Assembly (NCBI GenBank): GCA_002951815.1
Contig: CP019454.1
Coordinates: 2,666,001 to 2,730,000, forward strand
DNA: 64,000 nt
Reading direction: 5' to 3'
Source of the DNA: Sulfobacillus thermotolerans
Lineage (GTDB): Bacteria; Bacillota; Sulfobacillia; Sulfobacillales; Sulfobacillaceae
Both the position numbers and the translations under genes were made by a program. Positions within the stretch are counted from its first letter, which is position 1. Every line of letters starts with the position of its first letter. The notes below the pieces were generated by a model. That model was not told where the DNA came from, made no database searches, and worked only from the letters and a program-made list of their open reading frames with translations. This document shows positions 957 to 11,995 of this stretch, piece after piece.

Positions 957-990
957 TCCGTTCCCTTTGCCCTAAGGGAACGGATTTTTT
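957..990 (+). terminator. Rho-independent terminator after the phosphohexomutase gene
   Basis: A perfect 11-bp stem (957-967 with 974-984) has a 6-nt loop and is followed by six T (985-990). It lies 19 bases after the stop codon and closes this transcription unit. Confidence 0.9.
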
Positions 991-1054
991 GTGCCCTTTT
1001 AGAGGATTTCCGCTTCTTATGTCGAATTTTGTCGAATTGAAAAGGGGGATGACG

Positions 1055-2536
1055 ATGCGTCGCTGGATTGCTCCGCTTATTCAGGGAATATTTTGGATCG
1101 CTGTGCCATTTTGGACCATTACCGCGTTAGCAGACGGATTAGCTCATAGCCTTTTTCAACAGCCGCGCCTGCTCTCAGGGGGAGATGACCTTGGCCTTTT
1201 AGCGTTGGGTTTGGGGTTCGCAAGCTTTTCATTGACTCGGCGCAAGGCTATTGCCTTGCTAGTCTTGTCCGCTTCTCTGGCAATTGACCTGGTCCCGTGG
1301 GCCTTCTCCATTCTGATGGTGGTGGCACTCCTCTATGCACGGTATCATCAGCGGCACCCTTCAGGCCCATTGACGACATTAGGGCGCGTCGTCCCCTGGC
1401 ATGTCCCCATTCAACTTGATCTGTCTGACCGCTACATGCATTTACACGTCATAGGCCCGACGGGCTCCGGTAAGTCTTCAAGCATACTCATGCCCTTGAT
1501 TGAACAAGATTTGCGCGCCAGACGGGCTATCACCTTAATCGAGCCCAAAGGAGACTTAAGTTACACAGCCTATCAAGCCGCTTTGCGTCATCACGCCACG
1601 GTGATTTACTTTGATCCGCATCGTGCCGACTGCGCACATTATAACCCTTTAAGCGGACCCGCCGACGTGGCCGCTGAAGGATTGTCTTGGGCTCTAAATC
1701 AGATAACGGAAGCAGGGCATCCTTTTTACGCGGTGACATCCCGGGTGCTTTTGATGTACAGTGTGATGGCAGTTAAAGAGACATTGGGCGAGCAAGCAGA
1801 CCTCACCCATGTATTAGACTTCTTGCGCATGGAAGCCTTTCGCGAAGATATCCTAAGGCAATCCCACGACCTGCGTGTCTTAGCGTATTTTCGCGAGCAG
1901 TTAAAGCAAATAGGAGCCCGCACGGCCCAAGAACAGCGCCAAGGCCTGTTAAATCGCCTAGAATTGCTGCTGGTCAATCCTGATATCCGCCGCGTCCTCA
2001 CGGGTTCTGGCCACTTTGATTGGGACACCGTCCTACGTGATGAAATTTCAGTCATTTGCCCCTTGTCTCTGGCACGGCTAGGCGAATCCGCCAAAGTCAT
2101 CGGGACTTTGCTATGGCATGGTCTTGCTATGGCCACGTACCGCCGTCTCAAAGCGGGAACAGTTCCGCCATATTTTCTGTACCTCGACGAATTTCACCAA
2201 TATGTCACCCCCGACCTCAGCGACTACTTGGCTTTAGCTCGCGGCTATTCCGTCGGTTTAGTGCTTGCGCACCAAGATATGGGTCAGCTTTCTCCCCCAT
2301 TACAAGAAGCGTTATTGGCCAACGCCCGCCAACGTATGGTGTTAGGCGGCATTCACGCCCATGATGCCGCGATATTTTCGCAATTGGCCGCGCCCTATCC
2401 GCTCCCGCCCACTCTGCGGTATTTGCCTAGAGGCCGAGCCTATGCCCAGCTTACAAAGCACGGACGATTAACACGTCCTTTGCTATTGCAATTGCCCCAC
2501 ATCCCCTTGTCGGAAGAGGTCTTGCCGCATGAATAA
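1055..2536 (+). CDS. VirD4/TraG-type coupling ATPase
   Basis: A 493-residue membrane-anchored P-loop ATPase of the type IV coupling protein class. Two to three hydrophobic segments fill roughly the first 95 residues. Walker A GPTGSGKS is at about residue 134 and the Walker B-like YLDEFH comes late (around base 2175), followed by a Gln-containing sensor region (LAHQDMGQ). ATG 1055 is preferred because AAAGGGGG (1041-1048) abuts the in-frame ATG 1049 but sits 6 bases before ATG 1055. The ORF can extend to 989, but that overlaps the terminator. It overlaps the next gene by 8 bases, so the two are probably translationally coupled. No relaxase or other type IV secretion gene is nearby. Confidence 0.82.
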   Translation: MRRWIAPLIQGIFWIAVPFWTITALADGLAHSLFQQPRLLSGGDDLGLLALGLGFASFSLTRRKAIALLVLSASLAIDLVPWAFSILMVVALLYARYHQRHPSGPLTTLGRVVPWHVPIQLDLSDRYMHLHVIGPTGSGKSSSILMPLIEQDLRARRAITLIEPKGDLSYTAYQAALRHHATVIYFDPHRADCAHYNPLSGPADVAAEGLSWALNQITEAGHPFYAVTSRVLLMYSVMAVKETLGEQADLTHVLDFLRMEAFREDILRQSHDLRVLAYFREQLKQIGARTAQEQRQGLLNRLELLLVNPDIRRVLTGSGHFDWDTVLRDEISVICPLSLARLGESAKVIGTLLWHGLAMATYRRLKAGTVPPYFLYLDEFHQYVTPDLSDYLALARGYSVGLVLAHQDMGQLSPPLQEALLANARQRMVLGGIHAHDAAIFSQLAAPYPLPPTLRYLPRGRAYAQLTKHGRLTRPLLLQLPHIPLSEEVLPHE

Positions 2537-3239
2537 TCCCCTCACATGGCCATTGGTGCTGGAGACTACCGGCTATCTGTCTTCAAACCAAGCACAGCAC
2601 TATTTTGACCTAGCCCTCGTGGGCAACGACTGGCCTGCCGATTGCATTCTTTGGAACGATGCGCTATGGACGCGTGCACAGTTTCAACGCGGAGCCCACG
2701 CGAAGCACCGCGAACTCGTTACGGAAAGCTTTATCCGTCTTTTTCCGGTTATTACTCATTGGCAAACCGGGGGCACCCCGTTTGGCTTATTCCCTGATGC
2801 TATGATTCGCATGTCGCCCGATGACCTCCCGATTTTAATTGAAGTGGACACAGGTAAAGAAACCGCCAAACAATGGCAATCGAAACTCGCCATGTACAGA
2901 CTTGAAGCTTTTGCCAATCCCCCGTTCGGCTTATGGGTCATTGCCGCGGGAGGACCACGACGCATCAACCATCTCACCACATGGGTCAATGACGCGAACT
3001 TACCCCTCTCATGGCAAGTCAGCCCGGTTCTCCAATTGCCTGAACCCTTCTGCGTACGCGACAAGGCGCCCAATCCTCCGCGTCTTGCCGCATTGAGTGA
3101 ACACCCTCGCTACCGTATGTGGCCGGAAGGAACAGAGTTGACGGCCCCCCAAGCGCAGATCCTGTTACGTCAAGGCGCTCAAATTCACGCCAAAGAAATC
3201 ACCGCCTTGGGCCCATTGTATTATCTGACCTTCTTGTAA
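2529..3239 (+). CDS. Replic_Relax-like protein (replication-relaxation family)
   Basis: A 236-residue protein resembling the Firmicute Replic_Relax family, found on plasmids and integrative elements beside FtsK/TraG-like ATPases. The middle carries FPDAMIRM, then ILIEVDTGKET and a following QSKLAMYR. This D...ExD...K order recalls the core of restriction-endonuclease-like folds, although activity is unproven. The N-terminal region would be the winged-helix part. It starts inside the end of the ATPase gene. It could equally be a DNA-binding partner without nuclease activity. The family call rests on motif memory. Confidence 0.6.
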   Translation: MNNPLTWPLVLETTGYLSSNQAQHYFDLALVGNDWPADCILWNDALWTRAQFQRGAHAKHRELVTESFIRLFPVITHWQTGGTPFGLFPDAMIRMSPDDLPILIEVDTGKETAKQWQSKLAMYRLEAFANPPFGLWVIAAGGPRRINHLTTWVNDANLPLSWQVSPVLQLPEPFCVRDKAPNPPRLAALSEHPRYRMWPEGTELTAPQAQILLRQGAQIHAKEITALGPLYYLTFL

Positions 3240-9939: not shown

Positions 9940-10305
9940 TTAGGGATTTCCTGGCAAACGATGGTTCAGTTTAATAATATACCATGCCAGATTACGCGCT
10001 TGCGAGGGGCTTAATATGCCGGGGTTGGTAGCTGGCATCCGACTCTGAATAAATTGTGCAAGCGCTGACGTATTGGCATATTTCGTGACGGTCACACCAT
10101 CGTTAAGAACCGGCGCTCCTCCAGCCCCATCTCCCCCAGGGCCATGGCAAGTTTGGCACAGTGACGCAAAAAGCTCTTGGCCTTCCTGAGCCTCTTGCTG
10201 CGCCATCACGACATGCGTCGTGACTTGAGTCTCGTCATAGAGCCCAACGCCGGAGGCGGCGATAAGCAAACCCGCTCCCAAAAACGTTATCCAACGCTTA
10301 GTCAT
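9940..10305 (-). CDS. Membrane-anchored mono-heme cytochrome c
   Basis: A 121-residue class I cytochrome c. An uncleaved or cleavable hydrophobic N-terminus (ITFLGAGLLIAASGVGL) is followed by the heme site CQTCHGPGGDGAGG and a C-terminal Met-containing stretch (SRMPATNPG) that can supply the sixth ligand. AGGAGG (10315-10320) abuts ATG 10314 but is 9 bases from ATG 10305, so 10305 is taken. It follows the TsdA-like cytochrome gene by 2 bases and could be its electron acceptor, as TsdB is for TsdA (inference). Confidence 0.88.
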   Translation of the reverse strand: MTKRWITFLGAGLLIAASGVGLYDETQVTTHVVMAQQEAQEGQELFASLCQTCHGPGGDGAGGAPVLNDGVTVTKYANTSALAQFIQSRMPATNPGILSPSQARNLAWYIIKLNHRLPGNP

Positions 10306-10307
10306 TC

Positions 10308-10808
10308 TCAGCATCCTCCTTGAACGCCATGCATGGCACTTTTGGCTGCTAAGTGTTCAGGCCAACCGCTTGATAACCAGCGCAGATAAAGGTTCAGCGC
10401 CTGCAAGCGAGGGCTAGAAGCGGGAAGGGGGGCCGTGTGAGTCATTCGCAGGCACTGATTAATTTGGGCATCCAACGTACGAATGTGTCCCGCTCTCACC
10501 AACGGAAACGAGGCTGCCGCGCCAAGCAGACTCGGAATCAAATGCCCTTGGCGGTAAGTCATAAGGGTCCCCCCGCCGGCATGGCAACTCACGCAAGAAA
10601 CACCCTGCACCGGATCCATAAATGCTGTCTCCCCGTAGCGAATATCTTGTCCTAAAGGGCCGGCGGGAAGAGACAATTGGGGCGGGTCACGCAAGGCCTC
10701 AGCGGTCATACGACTCACCGGAAACGCCAGCATTAATCCGTTTTCATCGGGTTGATACAGAGTCTGCCCGACGATAATAGGATAGTCGGCGGCAAAAGCC
10801 CCTCCCAT
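10308..10808 (-). CDS. TsdA-like cytochrome c domain; likely the C-terminal part of the frameshifted propeller protein
   Basis: The frame encodes the heme site CVSCHAGGG and then DAQINQCLRMTH, APLPASSPRLQALNLYLRWL, resembling the N-terminal cytochrome domain of thiosulfate dehydrogenase TsdA. The first ~60 residues instead look like the last blade of a PQQ-type propeller (MGGAFAADYPIIVGQTLYQ). Upstream of the ATG there is no ribosome site, while the same frame continues back with ALNAKTGQEQASRY, a blade repeat. It is therefore most likely the C-terminal half of the protein begun at 11995, separated by a one-base slip near 10856-10863. Confidence 0.75.
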   Translation of the reverse strand: MGGAFAADYPIIVGQTLYQPDENGLMLAFPVSRMTAEALRDPPQLSLPAGPLGQDIRYGETAFMDPVQGVSCVSCHAGGGTLMTYRQGHLIPSLLGAAASFPLVRAGHIRTLDAQINQCLRMTHTAPLPASSPRLQALNLYLRWLSSGWPEHLAAKSAMHGVQGGC

Positions 10809-10843
10809 ATAGCGTGACGCCTGTTCCTGGCCCGTTTTAGCAT

Positions 10844-11995
10844 TTAAGGCAACATCCCCGCCCTATCGCCGACATATAACGTGTGGCGTAGCAACGCCGC
10901 GGAAGCAGAGACCGGACCATACGCTTGAAACGCCCACAATTTTTGACCGGATTGGGCGTTTAGCGCATATTCACAGTGGGAAATCGGCGATCCGACAAAA
11001 ACCCTGCCATGATACAATACTGGAGCCGAGACCTCAATATCTTTCGGCAATTTCCCCGTACCCAACGGCGTTTGCCATGCCAATGCCCCGGAATGTCGAA
11101 AGGCAAACATCGTAGAGACCGGATGTTGCCACGAACCGGTTGTTCCCTCGACATAAATCAACGAGGGCGACACGGCAATCGAGCTATCATCCGATCCCCC
11201 AAACACCTTTGGTACCGGCCGTTTCCAGATCACGTTGTGTGTTTGCACATTAATCGCATACAACGCATAAGGATGGGCCCCCGAGACATAAAGGGTATGC
11301 CCGAATACTGCAGGCGACGACATGCTCACATACGACCCCAAAGTCAAACGCCACCCAAGCGCCCCCGTTTTCGCATCAAGAGCCGATAACACCCCACTGC
11401 CGCCCACCGTATAAATGACGCCATGGTCGTAGACGAAACTAGGCATGTCCTCACCGCGTGTTGGGTCTTTCCACCTTACACGTCCCGTACGAGCATCTAG
11501 GGCATATATGGCGTTAGGGCCCGTTCCACGGAGGATATTGCGGCTTTGCAGCCGATTCACTCGGCGTTGCTGCGACGCGCTAAATGCTTGATTGCCCGTG
11601 CCGACAAACACTAAACCGTGTGCTACCACTGGGGTCGTCATCGACATGTTGTCTAAGGGCCTGGCCCATAGCTTCTGTCCCGTTTGGGCGTTAAGGGCGT
11701 AGAGCGCATGGTGGCCAGGCATTCCGTCGCCTGACACATAGATAACACCTTGAGCAAAAGAGGCCTGTTGTAAGGGGGTGCTGGCTGAGTATGTCCATGC
11801 GACGTTCCAATGTTTGAGCGCAGCCGTTTCGATCACCGCATTGTTCGACGCATTCATCGCATACTTGGTAAAGCGGCTAGGCCCTGTATCTGCAACGCTC
11901 TTCCCCCGTGCGACACTGGAGTGCTGTGCAAAAAGCAAGGCCGCACTAATCGTCAGGACTGGAATCCCCCAGAGAAGCCGCGCCCGTGATACCAT
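10844..11995 (-). CDS. PQQ-type beta-propeller protein, frame broken before the C-terminal cytochrome domain
   Basis: A 383-residue exported protein. After a signal-type N-terminus (LLWGIPVLTISAALLFAQ) there are at least six blades with the YALNAQTGQKLW pattern (YALDARTGRVRW, SALDAKTGALGW, YAINVQTHNVIW and others). It stops at TAA 10844, immediately after LYVGDRAG, in mid-blade. Adding one G in the run at 10856-10863 would join it to the downstream cytochrome frame and give about 560 residues. Tetrathionate hydrolases and quinohaem dehydrogenases both use such propellers. The cytochrome half points to a thiosulfate/tetrathionate role, but this is inference. Confidence 0.8.
   Translation of the reverse strand: MVSRARLLWGIPVLTISAALLFAQHSSVARGKSVADTGPSRFTKYAMNASNNAVIETAALKHWNVAWTYSASTPLQQASFAQGVIYVSGDGMPGHHALYALNAQTGQKLWARPLDNMSMTTPVVAHGLVFVGTGNQAFSASQQRRVNRLQSRNILRGTGPNAIYALDARTGRVRWKDPTRGEDMPSFVYDHGVIYTVGGSGVLSALDAKTGALGWRLTLGSYVSMSSPAVFGHTLYVSGAHPYALYAINVQTHNVIWKRPVPKVFGGSDDSSIAVSPSLIYVEGTTGSWQHPVSTMFAFRHSGALAWQTPLGTGKLPKDIEVSAPVLYHGRVFVGSPISHCEYALNAQSGQKLWAFQAYGPVSASAALLRHTLYVGDRAGMLP

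Follow-up and report, generated by a model that had tools for sequence, protein, structure and literature searches.

The question raised by this locus is whether a PQQ-type propeller and a cytochrome resembling thiosulfate dehydrogenase (TsdA) form one enzyme and, if so, what that enzyme acts on. An initial annotation had proposed that they form an exported fusion, with a small cytochrome as partner, and that the fusion couples thiosulfate and tetrathionate chemistry in one polypeptide. We analysed a window of 64,000 nucleotides (bases 2,666,001 to 2,730,000 of the closed genome of Sulfobacillus thermotolerans Kr1, 3,317,203 bases) and compared it with related genomes. The features of the locus are listed by window position, with TTH denoting tetrathionate hydrolase.

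10844 to 11995, minus strand: propeller open reading frame (ORF), 383 aa, with an N-terminal signal or anchor and most of a TTH-like propeller (PF13360, 93 bits)
11906 to 11995, minus strand: hydrophobic N terminus (peak hydrophobicity at residues 5 to 23), predicted export signal or membrane anchor
11639 to 11641, minus strand: Met119, first TTH-signature methionine (NMSM-TTP; TTH methionines according to PMC11818568)
11444 to 11446, minus strand: Met184, second TTH-signature methionine (GEDM-P)
11321 to 11323, minus strand: Met225, third TTH-signature methionine (SYVSM-SSP)
11186 to 11188, minus strand: Asp270 (GSDD), counterpart of catalytic Asp325 of Acidithiobacillus ferrooxidans TTH (role of Asp325, PMC10859504)
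11033 to 11035, minus strand: Glu321, at the Lys/Arg381 position of TTHs, a reversed charge that is invariant in the fused family
10848 to 10855, minus strand: frameshift, four bases absent relative to five orthologues in the DNA alignment, which breaks the reported sequence
10308 to 10808, minus strand: haem ORF, 166 aa, with the last blade and a SoxA/TsdA-type haem domain (contains CVSCH and INQC; PF21342, 27.5 bits; TsdA-like predicted fold)
10581 to 10595, minus strand: haem c attachment motif CVSCH, invariant in the alignment
10464 to 10466, minus strand: haem-domain site (PMC4423706)
10452 to 10454, minus strand: Cys119, predicted as an axial ligand of the haem, 43 residues beyond the haem His and invariant in the family
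10311 to 10319, minus strand: Gly-Gly-Cys at the C terminus of the haem ORF
9940 to 10314, minus strand: partner monohaem cytochrome c, 124 aa, with an N-terminal hydrophobic anchor, CQTCH and predicted ligand Met93 (RMPATNPG)

In the window, the propeller ORF and the haem ORF lie in different frames; the former meets a stop past the frameshift, beyond which the last propeller blade is encoded. By DNA alignment with five relatives, we found that Kr1 lacks 4 bases between about positions 10851 and 10852, in the codons of a conserved Gly-Met/Phe-Leu/Phe-Tyr stretch close to where the propeller ends. As reported, the Kr1 sequence would not yield the joined protein. In contrast, the propeller and haem domain share a single stop-free frame in 15 other genomes, so the proposed fusion holds for the relatives but not for the window itself. 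The intact fused proteins have about 566 to 594 residues (open frames of 569 to 601 aa).

The Kr1 genome was determined from 454 reads, with gaps closed by Sanger sequencing (PMC6803676). A homopolymer error in a G-run was ruled out as the cause of the frameshift, since the 4-base gap follows ATGT in the DNA alignment, and programmed frameshifting was dropped because the relatives use a single frame. A 4-base gap is atypical of 454 homopolymer errors, which makes a genuine mutation no less likely than a sequencing error. The gene may have been inactivated by a recent deletion, or the gap may stem from misassembly; the rest of the Kr1 gene is well preserved, as would be expected if the event is recent or the sequence is in error.

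Besides the window, the fusion is carried by 14 genomes of the same family, Sulfobacillaceae, and by one (G041) from a different family within the order. Among the bearers with names are S. benefaciens AMDSBA4, S. harzensis DSM 109850 and Sulfobacillus sp. clean5091. The fused gene is missing from four genomes of the genus. The propeller and haem domains are under strong purifying selection (dN/dS of 0.016 to 0.114 in two close pairs), and dN/dS for the partner cytochrome is 0.10 to 0.16 in close pairs. An alignment-based scan of genome contigs recovered 11 fusion loci and missed 4 of the 15 known bearers, which makes it a weak test of absence elsewhere; a scan of the contigs with a single sequence gave no match. 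The SoxA/TsdA domain scored above the cut-off in at least 2 of 398 genomes of the phylum, a lower bound given that the weak domains of two known bearers were missed, and one of those genomes (G009) has the fusion. A tblastn search against plasmids returned generic propellers only, and Rfam, promoter and terminator scans gave no informative result.

We also found propeller-only paralogues of about 442 to 458 aa (L076, L077, L079, L080, L158 and L159), which stop at the expected start of the haem domain. The two that were placed on the tree (G026 and G030) nest within the fused clade, which shows that the propeller can dispense with the haem and counts against the enzyme that we propose below. 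They would most simply have arisen by duplication followed by loss of the haem domain.

The partner cytochrome gene directly follows the fusion in 16 of 16 genomes, which makes the small cytochrome a constant partner. It had been placed 2 bases downstream; instead, we found that it overlaps the haem ORF by 7 bases, including the stop codon. All 16 partner sequences have an N-terminal hydrophobic segment, CxxCHG and the invariant Met of an MPA motif, so that the CxxCH and downstream Met ligand by which we recognised a c-type cytochrome are both present throughout. The partner is kept even in G041, where the remaining neighbours differ, and we therefore regard the fusion and the partner as a conserved two-gene unit. 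We are highly confident of this overall anatomy. Every fused protein ends in an invariant Gly-Cys (Gly-Gly-Cys in nearly all), and we raise the question of whether this Cys forms a disulfide with the partner cytochrome.

The other conserved neighbours in Sulfobacillaceae are acetyltransferase and glycosyltransferase genes, a GtrA-like gene and ThrE. No sulfur genes, including Sox genes, were seen in the fusion neighbourhoods, and we count this setting against the sulfur enzyme that we propose below. Separately, window positions 989 to 3239 hold a type IV secretion coupling-protein-like gene and a replication-relaxation-like gene. Their location close to ThrE is conserved in several genomes of the family, which gives the impression of a retained mobile-element remnant.

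We found that the best solved sequence match of the propeller is A. ferrooxidans TTH (6l8a), with E values of 1.1e-30 (window propeller) and 3.6e-58 (family profile). Like the TsdA matches of the haem domain given below, these lie far outside the range of chance. AlphaFold2 gave a confident propeller for the intact orthologue L081 (pTM of 0.70 overall), and the best fold match of this model is again 6l8a (Z of 50.2 over 396 residues at 2.3 A), followed by a first entry outside TTH at 40.8. Thus, TTH is the nearest known relative by both sequence and fold, as had been suggested. About seven blades had been counted; the propeller as a whole is matched best by TTH, which is eight-bladed, and the model is consistent with that number.

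Two other readings of the propeller bear on these matches. According to one, it is a noncatalytic scaffold, like BamB or YxaL, that places the cytochrome pair at the cell surface. Both proteins are among the sequence and fold matches, but TTH is clearly the better one (BamB reaches a Z of about 35), and the catalytic Asp and pocket Met residues described below are invariant; we consider a scaffold quite unlikely. According to the other, the protein is a PQQ-using quinohaemoprotein dehydrogenase of alcohols or sugars, which would agree with the PQQ-repeat matches in Pfam and NCBIfam and with the order of propeller and cytochrome in type II quinohaemoprotein alcohol dehydrogenases. However, the PQQ-dehydrogenase model scored 52.9 bits against a cut-off of 480, the family alignment has no invariant cysteine in the propeller, which argues against the conserved disulfide ring of PQQ enzymes, and the haem domain is of the SoxA/TsdA type. 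Alcohol or sugar dehydrogenase genes, whose conserved linkage would have spoken for such an enzyme, were not seen in the fusion neighbourhoods. A quinohaemoprotein is thus very improbable.

The catalytic residue of A. ferrooxidans TTH is Asp325 (PMC10859504). With the numbering anchored on the sole Cys of that protein, Cys301, the aligned Asp is invariant in all fused members and in the window. Three Met have been reported near the tetrathionate pocket (PMC11818568), and they align, by motif matching, with three Met that are invariant in every fused member. In contrast, the basic residues of TTHs are changed in the fused family: an invariant Glu takes the place of Lys/Arg381, Arg428 gives way to Ser or Ala, and position 465, an Arg in most TTHs, is rarely basic and mostly a small residue. 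Glu at 381 is common to many other non-TTH propellers of the searched genomes. Matched by equal spacing, positions 428 and 465 would correspond to Arg460 and Arg497 of Metallosphaera cuprina TTH, which contact the sulfonate ends. The fused group falls outside the TTH clade on the tree, with support of 100/99 for the separating branch.

The Met triad is also the starting point for a reading in which the haem domain is a mere electron relay and the propeller oxidises Fe(II), Cu(I) or another nonsulfur donor at a metal site formed by the three Met. In M. cuprina TTH, these residues have been put forward as putative ligands of a metal, and Sulfobacillus species are Fe(II) oxidisers whose pathway has been called unclear in a genome paper. 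The triad is, however, general to TTH-like propellers, real TTHs included; the absence of the gene from four genomes of the genus also argues against a metal donor, as does the haem domain, since those SoxA/TsdA-family proteins that have been characterised are enzymes of sulfur compounds (PMC4423706). We therefore regard a metal donor as improbable.

We modelled the haem domain separately because the fold search with the whole chain was uninformative on this part. Pfam family PF21342 (SoxA-TsdA_cyt-c) matched all 12 of the domains tested, and TsdA matched with an E value of 1.1e-5 for the domain alone and 2.3e-12 with the family profile. For the window's own domain, the model reached moderate confidence (pLDDT of 68, pTM of 0.60). 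In the fold search with this model, the top eight rows are all the TsdA haem-1 domain (Z of 9.8 to 10.0), SoxA comes next, and cytochrome c peroxidases lie near a Z of 5. The CxxCH and the axial-type Cys are invariant in the family, and the Cys aligns, at equal spacing, with the haem ligand of the TsdA active site. The likeness to the first domain of TsdA that the initial annotation had noted is thus upheld, and the predicted structure gives no sign of a cytochrome unrelated to TsdA. The fused chain has one CxxCH only, and the second haem is on the product of the next gene. The SoxA model TIGR04484 gave 40.8 bits for the window piece and 58.6 for L081, below its cut-off of 110.

Arg119 is reported to be invariant in TsdA and SoxA (PMC4423706). 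We found that it is replaced by Gln in the fused family (Glu in one member) and that Ser127 of TsdA is replaced by Met, Thr or another residue. G009, which carries the fusion, also encodes a di-haem TsdA-like protein of 264 aa (L102:6853-7647, minus strand), which, like true TsdA, has both the Arg and the Ser; the change is therefore a specific one. Among related sequences, we observed stand-alone exported single-haem SoxA/TsdA-like proteins of about 140 to 190 aa (L092, L093, L095 to L097 and L099 to L101). Those listed have the axial Cys and Gln in place of Arg, and most share the conserved end RHLSxFHER. In several genomes, the genes for these stand-alone proteins adjoin one for a protein of about 346 aa, which is a D-Ala-D-Ala ligase in the one case checked.

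The residues of both halves bear on the proposal that the protein is bifunctional, with the haem domain oxidising thiosulfate to tetrathionate and the propeller hydrolysing the tetrathionate in one polypeptide. The nearest relatives of the two halves are exactly these enzymes, and neither the catalytic Asp nor the axial Cys has been lost. Loss of the Arg need not be fatal: R119A TsdA of Allochromatium vinosum still turns over, more slowly, with about 40% of kcat kept and a Km for thiosulfate raised from 0.22 to 17 mM (PMC4423706), so weak turnover of thiosulfate by the fusion is possible. On the other hand, both halves lack the anion-binding residues (381, 428 and 465 of TTH; Arg119 and Ser127 of TsdA), which makes thiosulfate and tetrathionate less likely than another sulfane compound and suggests that the halves may have diverged in function. 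The position of the propeller outside the TTH clade argues in the same direction.

The other sulfur genes were tallied for 15 fusion genomes among the 46 searched, the window included. TTH-clade propellers, assigned by match strength, occur in six (G000, G001, G003, G004, G011 and G023) and are absent from nine; DoxD occurs in six and sulfur oxygenase reductase (SOR) in five. The fusion thus does not replace the known genes in any regular pattern, since TTH-clade genes coexist with it in six bearers and DoxD in six, and no clear pattern of co-occurrence with DoxD or SOR was found among the 15. TTH-clade genes, DoxD and SOR are all missing from 8 of the 15 bearers, which argues that the unit is not an accessory to the known TTH/DoxD route. 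Taken together with the residue changes, these results speak against the thiosulfate/tetrathionate coupling first proposed. We consider the bifunctional enzyme unlikely, and the sequences suggest that the substrate is probably not simply thiosulfate plus tetrathionate.

In Kr1, the haem domain of the fusion is the sole SoxA/TsdA-type domain, and four other TTH-like propellers are present. Two adjacent TTH-clade genes of 634 and 481 aa (L138, G000:C1:1866500-1873500) are likely the real tetrathionate hydrolases of this strain; the main text of its genome paper does not mention tetrathionate (PMC6803676). Elsewhere, we observed TTH-like proteins of about 1030 to 1044 aa with two tandem TTH-like propellers (L144 in G035, and G003:C1:2266616-2269207). 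The transcriptome of S. acidophilus TPY names one tetH, TPY_0895, which may be the fusion or a TTH-clade gene.

On balance, we prefer to read the unit as an extracytoplasmic oxidoreductase of sulfur compounds that delivers electrons to the partner cytochrome by way of a Cys-ligated haem, a reading that we hold about as readily as we doubt it and for which the sulfur substrate is argued from homology alone. According to this model, Sulfobacillaceae would make a two-gene, membrane-anchored enzyme outside the cytoplasm. The first gene would encode an exported eight-bladed propeller of the TTH superfamily followed by a SoxA/TsdA-type haem c domain whose haem is predicted to have His and Cys as ligands, and the second a membrane-anchored monohaem cytochrome c for which His and Met are the predicted ligands. 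The propeller pocket, with its three Met and acid Asp, would bind and activate a sulfane-containing compound at acid pH, and the sulfur would be oxidised at, or transferred to, the Cys that ligates the haem. The electrons would then pass to the partner cytochrome, in the role of the second haem of TsdA or of SoxX, and from there to a cytochrome c oxidase. More tentatively, the unit might represent a new class of respiratory sulfur enzyme in acidophiles, one that couples S-S activation with electron removal, uses neither thiosulfate nor tetrathionate but another substrate (e.g., polysulfane or colloidal sulfur) and fills a missing extracytoplasmic step in the sulfur oxidation of Sulfobacillus; we are inclined to doubt this wider proposal.

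Sulfobacillus is a main actor in metal-sulfide leaching, and its extracellular uptake of electrons from sulfur compounds is poorly known. Published schemes of its sulfur metabolism are built on TTH and DoxDA. Justice et al. (2014) reported uncharacterised TTH homologues in Sulfobacillus (PMC4378227), and we did not find mention of a haem domain in that paper. Nor did we find any description of a TTH- or TsdA-type fusion in Sulfobacillus in the open-access literature, which agrees with the claim that the layout is undescribed and is not proof of novelty. The unit is a concrete, testable enzyme candidate with an electron acceptor already paired to it, and eight of its bearers have no TTH-clade, DoxD or SOR genes. 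The fusion would also be a natural experiment in which hydrolytic and redox sulfur chemistry meet within one chain.

The propeller, haem domain and partner are a new combination of known kinds of parts. Like the TTHs (TetH) of A. ferrooxidans (6l8a) and M. cuprina, the fusion has an eight-bladed PQQ-like propeller with Asp325 and three Met, comes from an acidophile and is predicted to be exported; unlike them, it lies outside the TTH clade, is changed at basic positions 381, 428 and 465 and has a C-terminal haem domain, which none of the TTHs examined has. With the haem-1 domain of A. vinosum TsdA (4v2k/4wq7) it shares the predicted fold, the CxxCH, the spacing of the axial Cys and the tail YLRWLSSG. 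However, its chain has one haem domain, placed behind a propeller, with Gln for Arg119 and Ser127 replaced, and the second haem is on a separate protein. The pairing of a Cys-ligated haem domain with a small separate monohaem cytochrome recalls SoxXA, and the NCBIfam SoxA model matches the domain, but L081 stays well below its cut-off, the invariant Arg is missing and no Sox genes were seen nearby. TsdBA of Marichromatium purpuratum (5lo9) is likewise a TsdA joined to another domain, which is TsdB in TsdBA and a propeller in the fusion. Finally, type II quinohaemoprotein alcohol dehydrogenase (1kv9) also has a propeller followed by a cytochrome c domain, but its propeller belongs to another family, its cofactor is PQQ and its haem domain is of another kind.
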